From contig JAPJBO010000128.1 in the NCBI GenBank assembly GCA_030068145.1, positions 291,698-355,697 on the forward strand: a stretch of 64,000 nt of DNA, read 5' to 3'. The notes under the pieces are model-generated. The model worked only from the letters and a program-made list of their open reading frames with translations. It was not told where the DNA came from and did no database searches. Origin of the DNA: Diplonema papillatum (taxonomy: Eukaryota; Euglenozoa; Diplonemea; Diplonemida; Diplonemidae). Shown here one piece after another: positions 1,941 through 55,533 of this stretch. Both the position numbers and the translations under genes were made by a program. Numbering within the stretch: position 1 is the first letter of the stretch; each line of letters starts with the position of its first letter.

Positions 1941-2284
1941 TTAACCCCTTACGGACGGAGGGGGGGGGGGGTTAATTTTGGGAAAATGTACTTTTTCGGG
2001 AACTTCGGGCCGCAGTCAAAAATGGGTCGCAAACGGAGAGAATGGGGGCCTAGGGGTGCATTTTAATGATTTCGCAGCCGATCTTTCAAATGCGCACCTC
2101 AGAAATGAACGCGTACACATGCAGAGTGACACAGGAGACACATGGTCACAGGAGACACCTGGTCGGAAAAACCAGCACAAAATATCCGAACAACACCTAG
2201 AATTGTTGTCCAAAAATAACCGAAAAACCCCTACAAACAAAAATATTCAGGCCAAAACACAATTGATGAACAGAACTACTAAAA

Positions 2285-3434
2285 ATGGTGAAGAAGAGTG
2301 TGCGCTTTGCCGAAGACATGTCGGAGGAGCCAGACACCTCCTCCGCGTCGGACACAAGTGAATCGGATGATTCCTTGAACCCGGAAGAGCTTCAGGTGAT
2401 GACGATGATGCTGGTACGCACAACGCGGACATTGGCTCTATTTCGATAACTACTACACCAGTGTCCCCTTGATGAACCGTCTTTTTCGTTGGGGCTTCAC
2501 GCATGCGGAACGGTCAGATCCAACCGGAAGGGGCTTCCAGTCTTGCACCAAGTAGAGAAGAAATGGTAATCGTGGGAAAAGAGGACGCAAGAGCAAAGAA
2601 CAAAAGGCGAAAGAGCCTCAGCCAGGGGACGTCTTTTTTCGTCAGGCAGGGAACGTGACCTACGTCGAGTGGCACGACAAGCGCCCTGTGAAAATGCTGT
2701 CCACGCTTCCTGTTGGGGAAACCACTACCACAGTGGAGCGCAAAATCTCCAACAAGGAGACACGCAAGGTGGAGAAGCCGGATATCGTCAGCTCGTACAA
2801 CACGTACATGGGCGGCGTCGACCTGGGCGATCAGCTCATGGCGAGTTGCGGGCGACTCATGAAGGGCCGGCGTTGGTACCTCAAACTTTTTTTCTACTTA
2901 GTCGAGGTCTCCACTGTGAATGCCTACATCGTGTGGAAAATGCTGAGCACTGACAAGAAAGGAAGAACACCTTCACTTCCCGATTTCAAGCGCAAGCTGG
3001 TGATGGAGCTCCTTTCCGCCGAAAAGGACTGCCCAACAGAGTGCTCTACAGAGACGGGACCCCCTTCCAAAAAAACGATACCGCCACCCTCACCTTCGCC
3101 CCAATCTGCTCGCAAGACAGAAAAGCAGAAGCACGGCGTTGATCACAGGTTGAACGGGCTATTTCACAACCTCGTCAAGCTGGATCAGCAGCGACGGTGC
3201 ATATGCCACGTGCAGCGCAAAGGTGCGCTTTACAAATGCGAGCAGTGTGATGTCCCTCTTTGCCCTGTGCCGTGTTTCGGAAGGTACCACACCATGGCGC
3301 AACATCTCTTCGATGACCCAACCATGCAAGGCACCGTTGACCGTTTGAAGGACCCCAACGGCCGGCACTTCAAGAGAGGGAGGGATCGTACACTGTCGGC
3401 TGGCCACAGAATCAGCAAAGTTGCAAAGAAGTAG
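2285..3434 (+). pseudogene. piggyBac transposase, deleted and frameshifted
   Basis: Three pieces of one transposase can be read. An acidic N-terminus begins at 2285 (MVKKSVRFAEDMSEEPDTSS). A short piece near 2485-2565 contains CGTVRSNRKGLP, the conserved block after the third catalytic acid. A long C-terminal frame runs from about 2556 to 3434 with YNTYMGGVDLGDQL and the RRWYLKLFFYLVE block. The C-terminal cysteine/histidine cluster (CHVQRKGALYKCEQC, then CPVPCFGRYH) is the zinc-binding domain typical of piggyBac. The region with the first two catalytic aspartates is absent, and a frame change lies near 2565. The copy is therefore very unlikely to be active, though its ends could be mobilised in trans. 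Confidence 0.88.
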
Positions 3435-3596
3435 TGGAATCAGAGACCCTTTCTTCCCGTCGCTGCACCAAATCAAATGATCATCTCTTCGCATGCCCGT
3501 TTTTCCTTGTCCGCCTTTGAGCTTTCACCCCCGTCTTTTGCTACTGTCCCATGCTGGCTGGGTCCCAGGTTTCGCGGTGGCATCTGTTCGTCACTC

Positions 3597-3897
3597 GGGC
3601 AACAGTTTTGTCAGATGAAGGGCGCATTTGAAAGATCTGTGACGTATCTTTCCAAAGAAGCAAACATCGACCACTTTGACCAACATGCACTGGCTGGGTG
3701 TGGCTTGGGTCCCTGGCACGTGCCAGAGCTTGGGTTCTGTAATGGGCACAGGCAAGAACTCGAAAACCCCCAATTTCTGGCCAGCCCCCAAGTTTTGCAG
3801 AGGCATCCGCTTGGCAGCTCGGGCAGCAGTTTTGTCCGATGAAGGGTGCATTTGAAAGATTTGTGACGTATCTTTCCAAAGAAGCAAACATGGATCA
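3597..3897 (+). repeat. Two direct repeats in the piggyBac right end
   Basis: A ~65-bp block, including GCATTTGAAAGATYTGTGACG and CTTTCCAAAGAAGCAAACAT, occurs at about 3597-3672 and again at 3832-3897. These subterminal repeats are likely transposase-binding regions. Small frames crossing the region are not convincing genes. Confidence 0.7.
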
Positions 3898-3987
3898 CTT
3901 TCGTTGTGTCTTCATAGGCGAGATGATCTCCGCAACCTTTTTTGATTTTTCGACATATATATATGTCTCCCGTCCGTAAGGGGTTAA

Positions 3988-5053
3988 ATACAATTAAATA
4001 CAGAATAAAATACAGACCCTGTAGGCTACAGTGCAGCTGCCTTGTGGTTGATGTTTTTGACATGTCTTTGTGTGTGTGGCTCTAAATGATCCCTGATTCT
4101 CGACTACATCTACGACTTTTTCCTTGGCTTCAGCCTGCTTTTCCTCGCGCTTCTTAGTTTCCTCGGCAGCTTTGTTTTTCCGGTCGATATCGGCAACTAA
4201 CTCGTCAAGACCTGCCCATATTTGTGGTGGCGTGGACTCTCGCCAAGAAGGCGCTTTTCACCCCATGAAGCTGAACACCCTCTCTGCGTCACGGAATTCT
4301 GAATTCGTGCACCCAGTGTCACACTTCGGAGTCCACGTTCACTTATGTGGGGAGTTGTAGAGTACGGGAGGAACCGGAAATCTCCGGAAAGATGGTACCC
4401 GCATTCCAACTCGTCTCGGGAAAGGTCAGTCGACGACCTTATGCAGGTGGGTGGACTTGCGTTATCTCTCTGTCCCAGTCGCCATAGCAACGTTATCCTC
4501 GCCCAGCATCATCCTGCAACCCTGCTTTCAGGATGGCCATCGTGCCTCTCATTTTGGTTATCAACCTTACTCCTCGCTCGAATTGCCGTCTTCGACCTTC
4601 ACTGCCCCTGGTCCTGGTGGTTAGGACTACTTTCGTGACAACCTCTTCGTGCCACCTCTCTTCGTCACTGGTACCTTATCTTGCACCTCTGCCCGCCGCG
4701 GAGTGCACGTCTCTGTCTTCGATGCTGGCGAGTCCTTACGCCGCAAAGGAAATACCCCGAAACTCCCCGAATTTCTCTGAAATTTCCCGATATTTTCGTC
4801 TGGACGAGGTGGATACAGGCAAAATAAAGACATGTCAACTACAGGCAAATGGGATTCCAAATACAGACTTGTATTAAATACAAATTCTCCAGAATAAAAT
4901 ACAATAAAATACAATAAAATACAATAAAATACAACGAATAAAATACAAGTGTATTTTATTATTGCCATCCTTGCACACCCCCCCTGAATATAGAAGTTTG
5001 ATAGAAGAAATAACGCTAGAAGTTGTGTAGGCTCCTAGTGGGTAACACCAAAG
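3988..5053. other. Non-coding stretch with an ATAAAATACA microsatellite
   Basis: I find no recognisable gene. The block at about 4873-4952 is a tandem run of AATAAAATACA units. Around 4330-4430, GGAACCGGAAATCTCCGGAAAGATGG resembles a stretch at 27620-27670 and is probably a degenerate dispersed repeat. Confidence 0.5.
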
Positions 5054-6180
5054 TTGAGCAATTCTTTTTTTCCAAACTTTTTTTTTGGGGTCCATCGGCC
5101 CCGCGGGAGCGTTTTAAAAAGACACAAGGTTTTGACCCTGCATGTTATCCAACAAATAGTGCTAAGAACCAGGGGGGAGGTTGGTTGCTTGGTCAAGCGA
5201 GACGAGGCCGTGATCGACAATCCCAAAGGGGAGAAGGGCCATGCCGTTCACGCACTCAAGGTGGGTGGTCATCAAGGGCGATCTGACAGAGGCGATCTTC
5301 TTGCTTCTGACTTCTCTGCCACCGTTCCAGAGGTTGACCTCATGGACGACTACAAAGTTGGTGGGGGTGTGGCGAAGAAGCCCGCAACTGTCTGTACTCG
5401 GCTCACAGCATAGCATGCAGGGTCAAAACCTTGTGTCTTTTTGGAAATGGCAAAAAAAAAAAAATTCCGGAAAAAAAATGGGTTTTTTGAATTTTAAAAT
5501 TTTGGAACAAACTCTGCAGTAATTTTTGAGGAAGTTGAGCTAATTTTTTTTTTCCAAATTTTTTTTTTGGGGGCCATCGGCCCCGCGGGAGCGTTTTAAA
5601 AAGACACAAGGTTTTGACCCTGCATGCTACACAGTAACTCCTGAGCTGCAGAGGATGCGACCAGTGCAGCAACTGTGTGTTGCACAAGGTGTAACCGGCA
5701 AAGCAACTGTCTGAGTGCAGAGAATGTGACCAGTGCAGCAAATGGTTGGGTTGCATAGTGTGCTGCCGGCACAGCTACTGTCTGAGTTGCAGCGGATGCG
5801 ACCAGAGGGTGGTGACTTTGCAATGAGGCCGGTTTGATAGTCTCTGCAACCTGGGAATCGAGCTATCCTCCGAGTTTAGCCGGTGCTACCACATGAAGAA
5901 TGGAAAGCAAGAAGACGAAAAAGGCGTGCACGAAACCAAGAAAACGGAAAACAAACACTGTGGGAAACAAAAAAGCCTTGCCGAAGACAAGGTCACAGGG
6001 GGATGGGTGGGCGGGATTCAAGGCTTTGAGACCACCAACCAAGCAACCAACCTCCCCCCTGGTTCTTAGTACTATTTGTTGGATAACATGCAGGGTCAAA
6101 ACCTTGTGTCTTTTTAAACGCTCCTGCGGGGCCGATGGACCCCAAAAAAAAAGTTTGGAAAAGAAATTGCTCAACTTCCT
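5054..6180. repeat. Inverted duplication enclosing MITE copies
   Basis: Positions 5054-5190, ending in ACCAGGGGGGAGGTTGGTTG, recur in reverse complement at about 6040-6180. The two arms each include half of the MITE described separately plus ~50 bp of shared flank (CAACAAATAGTRCTAAGAACC). The inverted unit is therefore older than, or larger than, a single MITE insertion. Confidence 0.65.
5413..5627. mobile_element. 215-bp MITE with 29-30 bp inverted termini and TA duplication
   Basis: The ends are mirror images: GCATGCAGGGTCAAAACCTT at the left and its exact complement at the right, continuing into AAAAAGACACAAGG. The element is flanked on both sides by TA (5411-5412 and 5628-5629), as for Tc1/mariner-type (Stowaway-like) MITEs. 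The centre is AT-rich homopolymer tracts with no coding capacity. Confidence 0.85.
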
Positions 6181-6490
6181 TAAAAATTACTGCAGAGTTT
6201 GTTCCAAACTTTTAAAATTCAAAAAACCCAATTTTTTCCCGGATTTTTTTTTTTGCCATTTCCAAAATGACACAAGGTTTTGACCCTGCATGATAAATAG
6301 CTACTAGGGGCAATTCTCTGGAATGTCGATTCCCCAAATGAATCTGCAGAATCGAGCTATCCTCCGAGTTTAGCCGGTGCTACCACATGAAGAATGGAAA
6401 GCAAGAAGACGAAAAAGGCGTGCGTGAAACCAAGAAAACGGAAAACAAACACTGTGGGAAACGAAAAAGCCTTGCCGAAGACAAGGTCAC
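5856..6490 (+). repeat. 141-bp direct duplication flanking the second MITE
   Basis: Positions 5856-5996 and 6350-6490 are nearly identical (AATCGAGCTATCCTCCGAGT to CCGAAGACAAGGTCAC). The small basic reading frame in both (KKTKKACTKPRKRK-like) is too short and A-rich to call a gene. Confidence 0.8.
6086..6293. mobile_element. Second full copy of the TA-MITE
   Basis: This copy is in the opposite internal orientation to the one at 5413. It starts ACATGCAGGGTCAAAACC and ends GGTTTTGACCCTGCATGA, with TA at 6084-6085 and 6294-6295. The interior matches the first copy in reverse (CGGGGCCGATGG; CTGCAGAGTTTG). One terminus carries a small deletion. Confidence 0.8.
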
Positions 6491-48240: not shown

Positions 48241-48433
48241 TCACACATGCGTTCCTCCGGCAGCGTGAAGCCACGGGGGGCTCACGAACACCGGCCTGCG
48301 CAAAAAGGTTCCTCTACACGCATCGCGGCTGCAAGAAATGACACGAAGAATGAGAAGTCTTCCACACCTTCCACACGCTTCACTTGCACACGCTCGAAGT
48401 ATCCGATTTTTTTACGTCCTGATCATAGATGGC

Positions 48434-48765
48434 CGTTATATAACGTTATATAACGTTATATAACGTTATTCCCGGAGTTATTTGTTACCCCCCCCCTAAA
48501 TCCAGAAAAACCGTTATTGACCGTTATAAAACCGTTATTTGCCATTTTTGGTCGAAAAATACGTTATTTGACCGTTATAACGTTATATAACGTTATATAA
48601 CGTTATAATAACGGTATAATAACGTTATATAACGTTATAATAATTATATGAGCCAATTCACCTAGCCCCCCTGAAAATGACTTTAGCTCGATTACGCGTC
48701 GATTACACTCGATTACACTCGATTACGCTCGATTACGCTCGATTACACTCGATCAACTTTTGGGT
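48434..48765. repeat. Left-end palindromic and tandem arrays of the transposon
   Basis: TATAACGTTA runs at 48434-48475 and 48575-48640, GACCGTTATAA words between them, the spacer GAGCCAATTCACC, then (CGATTACACT)n at 48688-48752. The spacer recurs inverted just outside the second array (GGTGAATTGG). Confidence 0.9.
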
Positions 48766-48927
48766 GAATTGGGGGGGTACTGCAGTAATTGATTAACGGC
48801 GTAACACTCAGGCAATCTTGATTGGTCGGTTCAACGTACCCACTAACGCACCTTCTTCCGGGGCTAAAAAGGTGCTGATGACAGGATATTGAAATCGGAA
48901 TAAAAACAAGAATATTAGTCTGAAAAA

Positions 48928-51102
48928 ATGCCCGAGACAGGCCGTGCAGCTGGAGACCAGGAAGTTCGGGCTGACTTGCGGAAGCAGGTTGTCGAGTGCA
49001 TACGGGCTCGGGTACCAGTATCTCGCATTAGCTCGCATATATTCAATTTAGCGCAGCTAGTACTTGGGCCTTTCGGCATTCCGTGCGGGCCAGTTCCAGG
49101 CGATAGGGCTGTTCGCCGAGCGCTTGGTAGGCACCTTGTCCTCGGTGACATGGAGTTTCTGCTCCGGCTTGGGGGTGGTGACTTCGTCATTGCCGGGGAT
49201 GCAGGAGAGCTTCCGGGGAGCAAGGATATCCTCTGCCTGACGTTCTCGTACCTGGACACGATGGAGCAGAGGTGGAGGACGCGGCTTGTGCTTGCAGCAC
49301 TTGTGCGGCAGAAGGATCCAGCAACGACGACGAAGTATCTCCAGTACGTGCTGGACTACTTTCAGAAGCTGCAAGAGTCGCTCCTTGCCTTGGGGTTCGA
49401 TCTCCCTGGCGATGCACTGCTCCCAAGGATGAAGAAGGTTGTTACAGACAGAGGCCTCTTCACGACGGCTAGTGAGTTGTACGCCTGTGGGGCCGTCGAC
49501 GAGGTCATCATGGAGCCCGTGCATCGCCTGCACCTTGCTGACAAAGCCGTCCAAAAATGTCTGGCGACCGACCTTCCTTTGCGATCACTCATTCCATTGG
49601 CGTATGATTTCATCGCAGGAAACGATGCCTTCCACCACTGGCTGGAAGAAAACGCTGGCGTGAGCCCAGCAGGCGTGTTTTGGGCACCAGTCAAAGCCGG
49701 TCGGTTTTCAACACTGACGGCCGGAGCTTACAGCCTTTCAGAAGAGATTCGGGGAAAACCTCTTGCCGAGTGGGCGCGGCTTTATCTTTCCACGCGGCAA
49801 GTCCTGCTGTACGCGTCCAGCCCAATAGCAAAGAAGCGTGTGCCAAACCGGTTCCTCAAGCTGTATGAGGCCCTCGTGGGCACGTCGTTCCTTCCGAAGC
49901 TCCGCGTCCTCCGCTTGCTGTTCACGTCGCTCTGCTATCCTCTGACGCACTTGCTTTGGCATCTTGACCAGCTCGGCACCGTCAAGGAGGCGTGGTGCAG
50001 CATCCTGTGTTGCCTCTGCAAGAATGTGGGTGACCACGATCTTCAGAAATTGGTCGTGCAGGGCAAGAAGGACTGGTTCGGATGCGTCGTCCCGTTGCAG
50101 ATCCGAGTGGTGGAAACCGCATCCAAGTCGAAGCTGAAGTTCGGTGTTGTGGAACTCGAAGATGTTTTCCTTGTCGAGGACAAGCCTGGTGCAAAGCTAT
50201 CTGGATACGCAGCAGCTTTAAAAGACGCCCTCGCTCCCCATCGACAGTCCGACATACCCCAAGAAATTGAGTGTACTGCAGTCTCCGAGGAAGCCGAAGT
50301 TCTGGTTGGGCACGTAATGAAATACGTGCGGCATTTCAAGCGCCTAGAATTCGACAAGTACATCAACATGTCGAATGCAGCCAACGCACCCCCGAACTGC
50401 AATCCGAATTTAACGGAAACCCCTGTAGGTGTGGTGAAGCAGACTGTTGAAGACTGCAAGAACCAGACTGTCACCGATGAGGTACTCAGGGGTATAGCTG
50501 TTATTCGAGGAGGAAACGAACCTGAGATCAGCGAGTGGCTGCTTCGGGACTGCGCCGTTTCGACTCTTTGTGATACGGTGTACCGTTCATGGGAAAACTG
50601 CATTGAAAGGTCCCACCGCCTGGCAGACGAGTTCGAAGCACACACCCAGCGAAAACAGAATCTTGCTGATGAAAGCCAGCGCAAGCGCGATGCAAGGGAA
50701 GAGATCGCGAAGACACGCTTGGAGGCAATCGAGCAGTTGACCCCGAAGGAGATTGCTGAAAACGGCACTCGCGCATGCGTATTGAGTCAAAGCATGAAGC
50801 GACGCCTTCCCAAAAAGGGCAAAATGAGCGACCTTCTCGAAGCCATCATCGCCTTCGACAAGTCCGACTTCAAGCTGCCGACTACCTACGGCAAGGTCGG
50901 GCGAAAGCGTCCGGAGAAGCCCGGGGGAAAGCACTCTGTGAAACGTCGGAAAAAGAACCCTACGGTTAAGGCTGGGAAATCATCGAACAAGTCAGGCAGT
51001 AGTACCTCGTCCAATGGGTCCGACAATTCCGACGAGTCCGACAATTCTGACGAGTCCGACGAGTCCGACAGCGCCGACGATTCGTCAAGCGCTGACTCCT
51101 GA
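48928..51102 (+). CDS. Transposon ORF1, candidate transposase (RNase-H/hAT-like)
   Basis: This intact 724-residue frame starts at ATG 48928. I do not recognise it by name. Residues 84-116 (GDFVIAGDAGELPG then ILCLTFSYLD) look like the first strand of an RNase-H fold with Asp91. VVTDRGLFTTASELYACG (172-189) places Asp174 in the position of the second catalytic Asp. VHRLHLADKAVQKCL resembles the histidine-containing block that follows in hAT-type transposases. A long helical region follows, with CILCCLCKN among it. A charged coil (HTQRKQNLADESQRKRDARE), a basic stretch (KHSVKRRKKNP) and an acidic Ser/Asp tail complete the protein. Nuclear action on its own termini is expected. The catalytic assignment is inference from pattern only. 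Confidence 0.8.
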   Translation: MPETGRAAGDQEVRADLRKQVVECIRARVPVSRISSHIFNLAQLVLGPFGIPCGPVPGDRAVRRALGRHLVLGDMEFLLRLGGGDFVIAGDAGELPGSKDILCLTFSYLDTMEQRWRTRLVLAALVRQKDPATTTKYLQYVLDYFQKLQESLLALGFDLPGDALLPRMKKVVTDRGLFTTASELYACGAVDEVIMEPVHRLHLADKAVQKCLATDLPLRSLIPLAYDFIAGNDAFHHWLEENAGVSPAGVFWAPVKAGRFSTLTAGAYSLSEEIRGKPLAEWARLYLSTRQVLLYASSPIAKKRVPNRFLKLYEALVGTSFLPKLRVLRLLFTSLCYPLTHLLWHLDQLGTVKEAWCSILCCLCKNVGDHDLQKLVVQGKKDWFGCVVPLQIRVVETASKSKLKFGVVELEDVFLVEDKPGAKLSGYAAALKDALAPHRQSDIPQEIECTAVSEEAEVLVGHVMKYVRHFKRLEFDKYINMSNAANAPPNCNPNLTETPVGVVKQTVEDCKNQTVTDEVLRGIAVIRGGNEPEISEWLLRDCAVSTLCDTVYRSWENCIERSHRLADEFEAHTQRKQNLADESQRKRDAREEIAKTRLEAIEQLTPKEIAENGTRACVLSQSMKRRLPKKGKMSDLLEAIIAFDKSDFKLPTTYGKVGRKRPEKPGGKHSVKRRKKNPTVKAGKSSNKSGSSTSSNGSDNSDESDNSDESDESDSADDSSSADS

Positions 51103-51431
51103 TTAACCATGGGTCACTTTAGCTTCTCGTTCCTCTGCTCAAGTAATTTTGTTTGCGGTCAGCAGGCTCATTTTCATTCAGACGACGTCCTCATTCTTGC
51201 TGCTCTTACATAAACCATCTGGCCTGTACGGACTCTACGAAAACGCATGCCGTCATATGTTTGTCCCATCTCTCTTGCGTTCTTGTCGTTCTCTATCAGT
51301 GGCTGTCGTGCATTCGATGCCTTGTCTCGAATGTTGTGTGCGTTCAAGCGTGTGATCTGGTTGTGCTTCGCTTCGTGCTGCATTGATAATCTTTCATTGT
51401 GAACTTTATTGCAGGGGGTTTGAATTCTAAG

Positions 51432-52457
51432 ATGCCGCGCGAGAATGAGATCAGCTTCACCATGAAGGTGATTTGGGGGGAGCGCACAAAAAAGCTCCTT
51501 ACCAAAAAGGACCGAACAGCGGCCGCAGAGGCCGTTTTGTACGTTGAGCAGGGGGGTGACGACCTTGCGCAGTACGTCAAAAAGGCACGAGACGCAGCGG
51601 TGCCGATCGCGCGAAGGGAGGGCTTTACTGTCTCCCTAGCCCCCACCGCCGTTCGGTACACGCTGCCGAAATCCGCCGCGCGCCTCGACGACGATGACAC
51701 CGGCATCCGCGAGGTCGTTGGGCCGGCGGACTTGTTCGCAGCAGCCAGAGCGGACGCACGACAGCTTATTGTCGTGCTGGACGCAACCGAGAAGCGGGCG
51801 GCAGGCAAGCAAGCGAACACAGCGGCCCAGCTAGCCGCTAAGTTAACCGGCGCCGACCTGCAACCGGCCTTCAAGGTCGGTAAAGGCATCTCGCCCACCG
51901 TATCTTGCGTGGGATGCTCAAAGGTGGTGTTCGTCGCCAAGGAGGGGGACAAGGACAAGCTCAGGCTAGCCCCCTACGAAGCCCACATAAGCGGCTGTGA
52001 AAAGGGCGCCGCTCTGCTGGAGAAGACCGCGGTGGCTGCGGTCGAGAAGAAGCGAGGGTCTCATTTGCAAGACTCTCGAGTTGGGGCTCAAGCGCGACGA
52101 GAGGAAGAAAGGCGAGCCGCTGCCGCGAAAGAGGATCTGTCCAGCTACAGATCTCTTTTCGACATCTGGAAGAAGCCGAAGCCGACGAAGCCTGCAGGCA
52201 CGAGCACAGCCGAAGACAGGGCCTCGGAGCTACCGGATGCTGACCCGCCGGGGGAGCTACCGGATGCTGACCCGCCGGTGGAGCTACCGGATGCTGACCC
52301 GCCGGTGGAGCAACCGGATGCTGACCAGCCGGTGGAGCTACCGGATGCTGACCAGCCGGTGGAGCTACCGGATGCTGACCCGCCAGGGACTGTCCTGGTG
52401 AAGAGGAAGGCAGAGGAGTGCCAAGAGCCGAGGAAGAAGCTCGTCTTTCTGCTGTAG
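51432..52457 (+). CDS. Transposon ORF2, zinc-finger-like protein with decapeptide-type repeats
   Basis: A 341-residue frame is read from ATG 51432; an earlier GTG is in frame, and an AG acceptor-like site (TTTATTGCAG) lies just before. The centre holds CVGCSKVVFV followed by YEAHISGCEKG, a CxxC...HxxxC arrangement as in BED-like DNA-binding fingers. A 27-bp unit encoding ELPDADPPV is repeated six times (52228-52389). The C-terminus is basic (VKRKAEECQEPRKKL). Accessory DNA-binding proteins with such fingers are common in larger DNA transposons. No homologue is recognised. Confidence 0.7.
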   Translation: MPRENEISFTMKVIWGERTKKLLTKKDRTAAAEAVLYVEQGGDDLAQYVKKARDAAVPIARREGFTVSLAPTAVRYTLPKSAARLDDDDTGIREVVGPADLFAAARADARQLIVVLDATEKRAAGKQANTAAQLAAKLTGADLQPAFKVGKGISPTVSCVGCSKVVFVAKEGDKDKLRLAPYEAHISGCEKGAALLEKTAVAAVEKKRGSHLQDSRVGAQARREEERRAAAAKEDLSSYRSLFDIWKKPKPTKPAGTSTAEDRASELPDADPPGELPDADPPVELPDADPPVEQPDADQPVELPDADQPVELPDADPPGTVLVKRKAEECQEPRKKLVFLL

Positions 52458-52769
52458 TGCTGCAACGCAAGGTGCGGATTTCGTGTGCTTTCGAGCGGCC
52501 TAGCGCTTCTTCTTTTTTCATCATCGTTCATCATCCCGTCTTGCTAGGCTGCTCACAGTCGCTCGAAGATCTTTGTCCCTTTTCGCCACCAACTCGCCTG
52601 CAGTCCCCGAAAGCTTCCGGTCTCATATGCACATCGCCCACTTGCCTGCGGTTTCCGTCCCTCGTATGCTTATGCTTGGCACTTCTGGGGCCAGACAGTG
52701 GTCAACATGGTCGCCCATGGGCCAGTCAGGGGTCCACCAGTGGTCGAACCCAAAATACTAGTGTCAATC

Positions 52770-52960
52770 TCGATCACACTCTACAACGCTCTACTACACT
52801 CTACTACACTCTATTACGCTCGATTACGCTCGATTACACTCGATTACGCTCGATTACGCTCGATTACACTCGATCAGGGGGTAGGTGAATTGGCTCAAAT
52901 AACGTTATATAACGTTATAATAACAACGTTATATAACGTTATATAACGTTATATAACGGT
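52770..52960. repeat. Internal array: CGATTACACT run plus TATAACGTTA run
   Basis: Units change gradually from CTCTACTACA to CGATTACGCT (52777-52874). These are followed by GGTAGGTGAATTGGCTC, the inverse of the left-end spacer, and by a TATAACGTTA array (52900-52958). It thus mirrors the left end but inside the element, which suggests a captured or nested end. Confidence 0.85.
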
Positions 52961-52984
52961 TTTTTACCAATCCATGGGAGGTCA

Positions 52985-53295
52985 CACTGTCCTCCAGATT
53001 TTGGTCATTTTTGGCCATTTTTGCCACATTTTCCAGATTTTGGCCAATTTTGGTTATTTTTGCCAATTTTTCCAGATTTTGGTCAATGTTGACCAGTTTT
53101 GCCGTGTTTTCCAGATTTTGGCCCATTTTGGCCGTTTTTACCGATTTGGCCAGGATTGGCCATTTTTGCCATGTTTTTCAAAAATTTGGCTATTTTTGCC
53201 GATTTTTCCAGGTTTTGGTCATTTTTGGCCAGTTTTGCCATGTTTTCCAGACTTTGCCCATTTTGGCCGTTTTTGCCGATTTTTCCAGGGTTTTG
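52985..53295. repeat. Tandem array of TTTTGGCCATTTTTGCC words
   Basis: Units of about 20-40 bp (TTTTCCAGATTTTGG, CATTTTTGCC, GTTTTTGCCGATTT). The same array occurs in reverse complement at 54290-54690 (CGGCAAAAATGGCCGAAATC, TGGAAAAA), so the pair forms a long imperfect inverted repeat around ORF3. Confidence 0.9.
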
Positions 53296-53390
53296 GTCAT
53301 TTATGCCCTGCCCCTCACCAGAGCTATTCTTGTCTGAGTTTCTTAAACCCGCACAAGCTCGAACAGGCAGTCCGTGCGCGGAAAAAAAAA

Positions 53391-53476
53391 AAGGTCGAAA
53401 GACACCAATCTGTACACCCATTCGGGATCGTCGGAAACACAAAAACACGTGTACCGCCCCACCCGCTTCGATTTCA
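53391..53476 (+). repeat. Repeat family B in the transposon, ending at an acceptor-like site
   Basis: AAGGTCGAAAGACACCAATC then CCATTCGGGATCGTCGGAAA is the same family as at 57779-57839, 31655-31707 and 61621-61650. It ends CCGCTTCGATTTCAG, a good 3' splice site 34 bases before the ATG of ORF3, so the transposon may itself carry an intron ending in this repeat. Confidence 0.75.
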
Positions 53477-53509
53477 GCCACACTAGTCTTTCCAAAGGGA
53501 ATATCGACT

Positions 53510-53860
53510 ATGCCTGCGAAAAGCTCCCCGAAGGTCCAGCCGAAGCCGAAGGTTCAACCTAAAGCTCAGCCGAAAGCTCAGCCGAAGACCCCAGGTACAC
53601 AGCGCAAACGGCCTCGCGCCGAAAGTACGGATAGCAACAGCAGCAGCAGCAGCGCCTCGGTTGCAAAGGCGCGACGCGGAAGGAAGAAGGTGGCGGAAAC
53701 GCTGCGCGTCGAGGCCTTGTCCCGCGACCTGGCATTGACTGGCCCCAGCGTTCTCCCTGTCACGAAACCACCAAGTAAGAGCCCGGAACAACGATTCATC
53801 GACCGGATCAAGAAAACCGACCCCGGGCTGGCTGGGTTCTACGGGAAGCGCCAGCTGTGA
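53510..53860 (+). CDS. Transposon ORF3, small basic protein
   Basis: A 116-residue frame starts at ATG 53510. The N-terminal third is a Lys/Pro/Gln repeat (KVQPKPKVQPKAQPKAQPK), followed by KRPRAESTDS, a serine run and ARRGRKK. The C-terminal part, EQRFIDRIKKTDPGLAGFYG, looks like a folded short motif. The basic, disordered N-terminus suggests nucleic-acid binding. Frames upstream of this ATG run through the tandem array and are not real. Confidence 0.55.
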   Translation: MPAKSSPKVQPKPKVQPKAQPKAQPKTPGTQRKRPRAESTDSNSSSSSASVAKARRGRKKVAETLRVEALSRDLALTGPSVLPVTKPPSKSPEQRFIDRIKKTDPGLAGFYGKRQL

Positions 53861-54289
53861 CTGCTCGACTTTGCATGTCTCGTGCTCATCATGCACCCAT
53901 ATTTGGTACTGGGACCTTGTCTGACTGGCATAGTACGCAACGGTCTGCCGAGTGGACAAGCTTGGACAAGTTGGACTCCAGTGGCCGGATCATGCTGGTG
54001 ACATCTGCTGCCTCACGAAGGACACTGCAAACGACCGTTACGGGCCACCGACTGAGGGACACGCGCCGGAAACCCAAAACTGCAGACATCCACATCCCAA
54101 GAACAACATCGCACAGTGAAAGAGTCATGTGAATCCGGAAGGATCGCGTTTGTCGCGCTTGGGTGGAAGTCCGCAAGAAAATAAGTAAAAGAGAAAAAGC
54201 TCTGGGGAGGGGCTATACGGACCCCTGAGGACCGGTTACTACGAATTCTTTTCGGACCAGGGTTTGTTTCCGAACAGTTTTTGTGACCG

Positions 54290-54812
54290 GGATCCAAAAA
54301 TCGGCAAAAGTCTGGAAAAATTGGCAAAAATGGCCGAAATTGACCAAAATCTGGAAAATCGGGAAATCTGGAAAAATCGGAAAAAATGGCCGAAATTGAC
54401 TGATCTGGATAAATCGGCCAGAGTGGCCAAAATCTCAAAATTGTCCAAAATCTTGAAAAATCGGCAAAAATGGCCGAAATCTGGAAAAATCGGCAAAGAT
54501 TGCCGAAATCTGGAAAAAATCGGCAAAATGGCCAAAACCTGAAAAAATCGGCAAAAGTCTGGAAAAATTGGCTAAGATTGACCAAAATCTGGCAAAAATG
54601 GCCAAAATCGGAAAAAATGGCCGAAATGGACCAAAATGAGGAAAAAATGACAAAAATCTGGAAACATGGCCAAAATCGGAAAAATTCTAAAAACCGTTAT
54701 TTGCGTTATTTTTTCCGTTATTTTGCGTTTTCGACCGTTATATAACGTTATATAACGTTATATAACGTTATCACCGTTATAACGTTATATAACGTTATAT
54801 AACGTTATCAAC
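54290..54812. repeat. Right-end arrays of the transposon
   Basis: 54290-54690 is the inverted partner of 52985-53295. 54733-54808 is a TATAACGTTA array ending next to the terminal inverted repeat. Confidence 0.9.
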
Positions 54813-54819
54813 CGGCCAT

Positions 54820-55533
54820 CTACGCCTGATGTCCATAAGCGAATACCGCAGCAAACACGCGGTCTTCGAGCAGAGAAATCTGAAAGGAAGGGACTAGTAC
54901 TGCAGACCATGTGAGATAGTCTACTAGTGTTCTGGTGACGGTTAGTTGGTCTAATGGTGTGCAGAAGAGATGCCTGTCTCGTGGCACGATCAATGCAGCT
55001 TGCAAGGGACCACCATCATAATTCAGATGCATGACTTTAACACGATCACGAAGAAAAGCATGGAGTGACGAGAAGCTCTTGCGACTCATCTCGGTGACGA
55101 AGCTTAGCGCACGTTGCATACTGTTAACCAGCGACTTGCGTGCCGATGTCTCCTGAGAAACAACTGTCCTGATTGTGACGCCTTGTGACTGTAAGGCTTC
55201 AGCAACTGGCTGGGGAGCAGCGAGGACAAGTTGATCAAGAGGGACGTGAGTTCGAAGGTCCAACTGAATGGGGTTTGGCACATCTGGAAAGTATGGTGTG
55301 TCGCTTGTTGGTTGGGCTGTGGTTACTTCACGACGACGGACAAATTCCCATAGTGACAAAGTCGAAGTCGGGCGAAACCAGCCGCAGCGCGCAACCTTTT
55401 CTCGTGCAGCGCTTTCTCCTTGGCATCCCTCGCAACTGATACCCATCCCGATGCGGGACTCCACGAAGGCCTGGATATCGCCAACTATCTCGTCTTTCTT
55501 TTTGCAAAAGACCCCCCTTAATAAAAGGGCCAT
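54820..55533 (-). CDS. Unrecognised 237-residue protein, 3' end cut by the transposon
   Basis: The frame begins at ATG 55533 (MALLLRGVFCKKKDEIVGDI). It contains GISCEGCQGESAAREKVARC, suggestive of a CxxC...C metal site, and later LRDRVKVMHLNYDGGPLQAA. The last codons read GHQA then TAG, and that TAG is formed by the transposon's inverted repeat. Across the reconstructed empty site the frame would continue 12 further codons (DVKKSDTSSVCK) to a natural TGA, so only the C-terminal dozen residues changed. An in-frame stop lies just upstream of the ATG. A second open frame over 55500-55840 (VGSNCAVDVVGRAQRVYMTW) may be an upstream exon. No family is recognised; it may be an older mobile-element gene. 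Confidence 0.5.
   Translation of the reverse strand: MALLLRGVFCKKKDEIVGDIQAFVESRIGMGISCEGCQGESAAREKVARCGWFRPTSTLSLWEFVRRREVTTAQPTSDTPYFPDVPNPIQLDLRTHVPLDQLVLAAPQPVAEALQSQGVTIRTVVSQETSARKSLVNSMQRALSFVTEMSRKSFSSLHAFLRDRVKVMHLNYDGGPLQAALIVPRDRHLFCTPLDQLTVTRTLVDYLTWSAVLVPSFQISLLEDRVFAAVFAYGHQA

Follow-up and report, generated by a model that had tools for sequence, protein, structure and literature searches.

An apparently undescribed, recently active transposon with a probable transposase of unclassified type lies inside a hAT remnant in Diplonema papillatum

We analysed a 64,000-nt window of the Diplonema papillatum genome (assembly GCA_030068145.1, contig JAPJBO010000128.1, positions 291,698 to 355,697; taken here to be nuclear DNA), and in particular a 6.4-kb segment at window positions 48424–54824 that had been described, in an original prediction made from the sequence alone, as a single, complete transposon whose type was unfamiliar and whose target duplication was 6 bp long. 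We find that this segment is two nested transposons, an inner element with an unclassified enzyme inside the remnant of a hAT element. A recently active and apparently undescribed transposon with an unclassified transposase lies within the 6.4 kb, but it is a separate element of 4249 bp, to which the first two open reading frames (ORFs) belong; only ORF3 is part of the outer element. The three ORFs of the prediction (724, 341 and 116 aa) do run in one direction on the plus strand, but the third is a truncated stub. The features are listed here in window positions (TIR, terminal inverted repeat; loci fetched from the genome carry L numbers, and contigs C numbers).

48418..48423, no strand: outer left target duplication CCTGAT (seen in the sequence)
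48424..54824, plus strand: outer element, an interrupted non-autonomous hAT internal-deletion derivative (sibling alignment; hAT region in the C57 copy)
48424..48435, plus strand: outer left TIR CATAGATGGCCG (seen in the sequence; genome counts)
48639..48643, no strand: inner left target duplication AATAA (window sequence)
48644..48648, no strand: filler TTATA, five extra bases between the duplication and the inner left TIR (window sequence)
48649..52897, plus strand: inner element, 4249 bp, carrying ORF1 and ORF2 (own termini; identity to L089)
48649..48664, plus strand: inner left TIR TGAGCCAATTCACCTA, 16 bp (terminus comparison)
48687..48747, plus strand: inner left subterminal tandem repeats, unit CTCGATTACR (sequence)
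48928..51102, plus strand: ORF1, 724 aa, probable transposase (ORF call; residues D91, D174 and H199-x2-H202 kept in a 46% identical relative)
51432..52457, plus strand: ORF2, 341 aa, a zinc-finger-like motif followed by ELPDADPPV-type tandem repeats
52769..52868, plus strand: inner right subterminal tandem repeats, unit CTCGATTACR in the plus orientation, as in the left array (sequence)
52882..52897, minus strand: inner right TIR, the reverse complement of TGAGCCAATTCACCTA (terminus comparison)
52898..52902, no strand: inner right target duplication AATAA (window sequence)
53510..53860, plus strand: ORF3, 116 aa, truncated 5' stub of the outer hAT gene (comparison with L023 and L045)
53840..53843, plus strand: outer deletion junction with 4-bp microhomology TACG (window versus L045 and L023)
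54813..54824, minus strand: outer right TIR CGGCCATCTACG, an 11/12 inverted match to the left TIR (seen in the sequence)
54825..54830, no strand: outer right target duplication CCTGAT (seen in the sequence)

The two elements can be told apart from both sides. Outer siblings of the common 2.1-kb form align only to element positions 1–226 and 4475–6399, and the part missing from them is the inner segment 48649–52897; subtraction of this insert leaves an outer element of ∼2.14 kb. When the window flanks of the insert are joined with a single AATAA, the resulting 62-bp string is found in 9 fetched loci, corresponding to 8 distinct places (L008 and L011 overlap). Copies of the inner family, for their part, stand alone at other genomic sites, and one of these (L089 on contig C4, duplication TCAAC) has 0 differences from the window copy over 4249 bases. 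The original prediction named other copies with different ends as a refutation, and for ORF1 such copies exist: the other full inner copies fetched end TGAGCC...GGCTCA, mostly with 5-bp duplications. On the alternative view, the whole 6.4 kb would be one autonomous transposon that carries three ORFs and makes 6-bp duplications, and the 2.14-kb copies would derive from it by deletion. In its favour, the outer termini, the duplication and the three ORFs in one direction are real, and the left array of another outer copy, L034, also holds an inner-family insert. However, the inner 4249 bp has TIRs and duplications of its own at other sites, its identical copy is alone on contig C4, inner termini outnumber outer ones in the genome (793+783 versus 303+314), and the site without the insert is present at 8 places. 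The standalone inner copies and the uninterrupted outer siblings already refute the single unit, which retains next to no probability.

The termini of the inner family were searched for in a 271-Mb assembly of 2910 contigs, in which the terminal pattern TGAGCCAATTCACC occurs 793+783 times and a reversed control pattern 0 times. From 100 listed TGAGCCAATTCACC places and the outer loci, we drew 23 inner terminus pairs, with the window left out: 16 were fetched whole, 5 came from separate terminus loci and 2 were nested (C57 and L034), while repeats of L089 and L093 and the loci L056/L057, which are not a pair, were excluded from the tally. An exact 5-bp duplication flanks 16 of the 23 pairs. The CTCGATTACR arrays near both ends are candidate transposase binding sites. 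One to five extra bases between TIR and duplication were seen in the window (48644–48648) and at inner loci L079, L087, L094 and L098/L099, as well as at outer loci L012, L014, L015, L018 and L020; in both families these look as if the donor cut or its repair had been imprecise.

The inner element appears to have been active recently, based on the 4249-base identity with L089 and on at least 37 intact copies of ORF1. Alignment to the window copy shows 0 substitutions with 10 gap columns for L091 and 1 substitution with 11 gap columns for L092, and a second inner type, represented by L090, L093 and L094, is 8 substitutions away (12, 778 and 42 gap columns, respectively; L093 holds an extra segment). 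The full-length, stop-free ORF1 copies found by genome search, at least 37 with the window included, comprise at least 25 places at the top score over residues 1–724 (the window among them), 1 place nearly at that score and 11 slightly lower. This count may be low, since 62 of 2230 candidates were scored; on the other hand, several copies are on short contigs, and assembly duplication could account for some of them. ORF1 is broken in one (L092) of the six other full inner copies fetched.

ORF1 is as unfamiliar as was predicted. It has no significant match in Pfam, PHROG, NCBIfam or the PDB sequences, and a protein-database search returned only Diplonema proteins among the matches listed. A hypothetical D. 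papillatum protein, DIPPA_07811, matches 62% of the length of ORF1 with 100% identity; this gene model covers only part of ORF1 and has a different C-terminus, and thus the ORF1 gene may be mis-modelled in the public annotation. The five sequences of an ORF1 alignment, which represent two distinct families, matched no transposase family in a Pfam hmmscan at E≤10, including hAT, Dada, Transib, KDZ and MULE, in a search in which HMMER filters drop most matches above E 0.1. The matches that were reported are DpdA (0.026), CSS-motif (0.03), SAP (0.11) and Saf4_Yju2 (2.4), and the SAP match, which comes from one member, ranks behind two unrelated chance-level families. Residues 501–646 of a homologue, L095, match the end of the Ku70 model at E 0.01. 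There may be a SAP-like motif near residues 600–644 of ORF1, placed by eye and weakly supported.

The vague RNase-H-like pattern of Asp91, Asp174 and a following His block that the prediction had pointed out in ORF1 holds up, in that these residues are kept in a relative of 46% identity. Across the two ORF1 families, D91 (in GDAG), D174 (in KVVTDR) and H199-x2-H202 (in EPVHRxHLAD) are conserved, and this order of D, D and paired His/Cys resembles that of hAT, MULE and related transposases. An AlphaFold2 model of residues 60–216 has an N-terminal helix and a strand, followed by strand-strand-strand-helix-strand-helix-strand-helix, which is the order of an RNase-H core, at a mean predicted local distance difference test score (pLDDT) of 45.2; D91 is two residues past the first strand of that core and D174 two residues past the fourth. 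ORF1 is probably a DDE transposase, either of a new superfamily or of a very divergent known lineage.

The view that ORF1 is the transposase of the element that carries it is best supported by a relative in which the expected features are joined. ORF1 homologues at 42–45% identity were found by genome search, and two loci were informative: L095 has an intact 707-aa version of ORF1 (46% identity), and L096 belongs to the same ORF1 family, with its frame broken into two pieces (44–46% identity). The L096 element (C8:220516–223322, 2807 bp) has TGAGCCGGTCCACC at both ends, 10-bp subterminal repeats with a unit that differs from CTCGATTACR, and a flanking GATAC duplication, to which a single base is added on the left side. 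Thus, one relative combines homology to ORF1 with TGAGCC ends, tandem arrays next to these ends and a 5-bp duplication. At least 8 places, L096 included, have an equal score for the second ORF1 part, which suggests that copies of the L096 type were amplified in trans through an intact version, for example that in L095.

If ORF1 were instead cargo, the 4.25-kb element would be moved by the enzyme of some other element. The function of ORF1 is inferred, and 16 of 30 inner terminus pairs, made from the listed TGAGCCAATTCACC places, are <4.1 kb apart, so that movement in trans is likely common in the inner family. However, ORF1 is intact in at least 37 copies, its relative sits between related TIRs, and apart from ORF2 the element has no further ORF larger than a 241-aa frame antisense to ORF1. 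We therefore consider it improbable that ORF1 is cargo.

Several observations weigh against a cut-and-paste element that makes 5-bp duplications with ORF1 as its DDE transposase. In seven of the 23 inner pairs the duplication is not a clean 5 bp (exact 6-bp matches in three, one of which, at L034, lies in a TA run; 5-bp matches with 1–2 extra bases in three; and none in one), and the window insertion itself reads AATAA-TTATA-element-AATAA, with five filler bases at the left. The ends of the relative's element were read in the L096 copy alone and not in L095. Many acidic residues of ORF1 are conserved, E354 and E497 among them, and none is singled out as the third catalytic residue. Both structure models of ORF1 are of low confidence (mean pLDDT 35.4 and 45.2), so that the RNase-H fold stays inferred, and fold searches with these models returned nothing informative. 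Moreover, no homologue of known function was among the matches listed.

There is a fair case for regarding the inner family as a candidate new superfamily. We tentatively propose, at somewhat less than even probability, that the TGAGCC elements, that is the inner family and its 44–46% identical relative, represent a new eukaryotic cut-and-paste superfamily that is still active in D. papillatum, characterized by TGAGCC TIRs, 10-bp subterminal arrays, 5-bp duplications, an RNase-H D/D/HxxH transposase with a SAP-like tail and, in the inner family, ORF2. The prospects are evenly balanced for the inner element to belong to a known superfamily beyond the reach of profiles, most plausibly as a divergent, hAT5-like hAT, or else as a MULE- or CACTA-like element. 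Divergent transposases often escape sequence methods, and the order of D, D and paired His/Cys is, as noted, that of hAT and MULE; in particular, the D/D/HxxH order resembles hAT. The element shares TIRs and subterminal repeats with hAT5 in addition to its 5-bp duplications, a length documented for hAT5 (the available portion of PMC12730594 describes hAT groups with 5-bp duplications). It differs from hAT5 in that ORF1 matches no hAT profile, that the finger-like motif is in a second ORF, and that a possible SAP-like end (weak) takes the place of the hAT C-terminus. None of the five ORF1-alignment sequences matches a Pfam transposase model, while two hAT proteins of the same genome match PF05699; similarly, comparison of an ORF1 profile with the Diplonema hAT L009b showed no relation, albeit in a weak test that used a shallow profile. 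Transib elements, like the inner element, have 5-bp duplications, but their TIRs start with CAC, whereas the inner TIR starts with TGAGCC and ORF1 has no Pfam match. Dada, which had been suggested for the 6.4-kb unit, has duplications near 6 bp. Dada inserts into multicopy small-RNA genes (PMC8869645, available portion), but the duplications found here are varied, a comparison made by duplication sequence alone.

ORF2 has a C-x2-C...H-x3-C zinc-finger-like motif at residues 159–189, has no match in Pfam, and is 97% identical to DIPPA_18042, a hypothetical D. papillatum protein. It exists in two variants, recorded on 23 and 8 contigs. The L096-type element has ∼340 bases after ORF1, too short for an ORF of this size, and ORF2 may therefore be special to the inner 4.25-kb family. 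ORF2 is possibly a DNA-binding helper, judging from its motif.

The ends of the outer element are as first described: 12-bp TIRs matching at 11 of 12 positions (CATAGATGGCCG at 48424–48435 and CGGCCATCTACG at 54813–54824), a perfect CCTGAT duplication at 48418–48423 and 54825–54830, and palindromic, TATAACGTTA-type arrays beside both termini. There are 303+314 occurrences of CATAGATGGCCG in the genome versus 4+5 of a reversed control pattern, and hence these termini are more than chance. From 100 of the 617 CATAGATGGCCG places, neighbouring plus and minus termini ≤15 kb apart were paired, and 38 pairs were fetched (37 whole, 1 as two overlapping pieces). The 6-bp duplication is genuine, since it is exact in 27 of the 38 pairs compared to a chance of 1 in 4096 per pair, but it belongs to a hAT derivative and not to the element of ORF1. 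Of the remaining 11 pairs, two match exactly over more than 6 bp (8 bp, in an AT run or microsatellite, and 7 bp), five give a match only when shifted by 1 nt (7, 6, 6, 5 and 5 bp), and four lack any duplication match. In the fetched pairs the outer ends differ beyond base 12, and the shared part, CATAGATGGCCG, is the search pattern.

The outer element is an ordinary hAT derivative, and its interruption by another transposon is likewise ordinary. Residues 1–111 of ORF3 match, with small indels, the N-terminus of 335- and 339-aa ORFs in L023 and L045, which run on into a C-x2-C...H-x3-H finger-like motif, near the N-terminus (by eye); no Pfam finger family matched the outer hAT proteins despite this motif. 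The last five residues of ORF3 lie beyond a deletion junction, with the stop five codons past it. At this junction the window reads GGCTGGGTTC-TACG-GGAAGCGCC, where L045 and L023 read GGCTGGGTTC-TACG-ACGTCC and then, farther along, GTG-TACG-GGAAGCGCC, which points to a deletion at a 4-bp TACG repeat. The fuller outer copy on C57, which has the 6-bp duplication ATTTTA, has frames that are broken but still encode an aspartate motif, a C-x2-H motif and, at the C-terminus, a segment that matches the hAT dimerisation region PF05699 (L045:2648–3043; E 1.4e-9, 38 bits with a cut-off of 21.4). Similarly, L009, an element with the same outer ends, encodes a 666-aa protein that matches PF05699 at 8.5e-7. 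The window copy is without the PF05699 part and keeps only 111 residues of the transposase gene. Based on the hAT domain in its relatives and the homology of ORF3, we conclude that the outer element is a non-autonomous hAT with 6-bp duplications, comparable to the Ds elements of Ac/Ds, known derivatives of hAT elements by internal deletion.

The length of the duplication had been taken to rule out hAT. This argument does not hold, because hAT groups with 5-, 6- and 7-bp duplications (hAT5, hAT6 and hAT7) are published, according to the available portion of PMC12730594, and the 6 bp of the outer element falls within the lengths known for hAT (8, and also 5, 6 and 7). The outer element shares with hAT6 the length of its duplications (6 bp), TIRs that are short, a finger-like C-x2-C...H-x3-H motif towards the N-terminus and, in the fuller copy, the hAT C-terminal dimerisation region; the window copy differs in being interrupted and in retaining 111 transposase residues only, and its placement in hAT is by domain and not by phylogeny. 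IS3EU, which also has 6-bp duplications, was considered and rejected, as fungal IS3EU TIRs exceed 30 bp with ends TAYGG..CCRTA (PMC12730594, in the same portion), whereas the outer TIR is CATAGATGGCCG and the fuller copy encodes hAT.

The following history and mechanism, taken as a whole with the nesting, is in our judgement very probably correct. An internal deletion at a repeat of 4 bp would have removed the greater part of the transposase gene from a hAT transposon, and the 2.14-kb derivative would then have spread with 6-bp duplications, presumably with full-length relatives supplying the transposase in trans. Later, a 4.25-kb element from a different lineage would have entered the AT-rich left array of one derivative, duplicating AATAA. 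The inner element most likely moves by cut and paste: as a DDE-type transposase, ORF1 would bind the 16-bp TGAGCC TIRs and the CTCGATTACR arrays, excise the element and reinsert it at a 5-bp staggered cut, and ORF2 may serve as a separately encoded zinc-finger DNA-binding helper.

The D. papillatum genome is ∼280 Mb, with repeats making up 52% of the assembly; the available portion of PMC10161547, which gives these figures, names TATE, MULE and Helitron among the DNA-transposon-like ORFs, leaves rigorous transposon identification open and mentions gene replacement in this species. The inner element is a concrete transposon candidate, with an intact, identical ORF1 protein at at least 25 places and clear ends and duplications. 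If ORF1 is a transposase and does not converge on known superfamilies, it would add a class of DNA transposons and possibly a genetic tool for diplonemids. The nesting also carries a warning: when ends and genes from two different elements are read as one unit, they can mimic a new system.

Nesting of the two families is not confined to the window. At 3 of 39 fetched outer places, with the window not counted, an inner-family end is inside an outer copy (L034, C57 and L004/L048), compared to ∼0.24 places expected from whole-genome copy numbers, or ∼0.47 if only the repeat half is insertable; inserts of the inner family are nested in the outer copies at L034 (218–2098) and L045/L046 (C57). The inner family possibly prefers AT-rich arrays or repeat-rich DNA, although the sample is small. 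The reverse arrangement was also seen by eye at L017, in which an outer element sits in an inner-type terminus. In L009 (1666–4428), a 730-aa ORF (1953–4145) with no significant Pfam match lies between 35-nt inverted repeats that are 74% complementary and start TAGGGGGGGTCAAAAG; this may be a further unclassified transposon that inserted into an outer-type element. One outer-ended copy, L041, is 9.1 kb long, and ORFs on its minus strand (2079–5850) match reverse transcriptase/RNase-H and the phage-integrase family (tyrosine recombinase), perhaps representing a DIRS- or TATE-like retroelement sitting in the outer copy.

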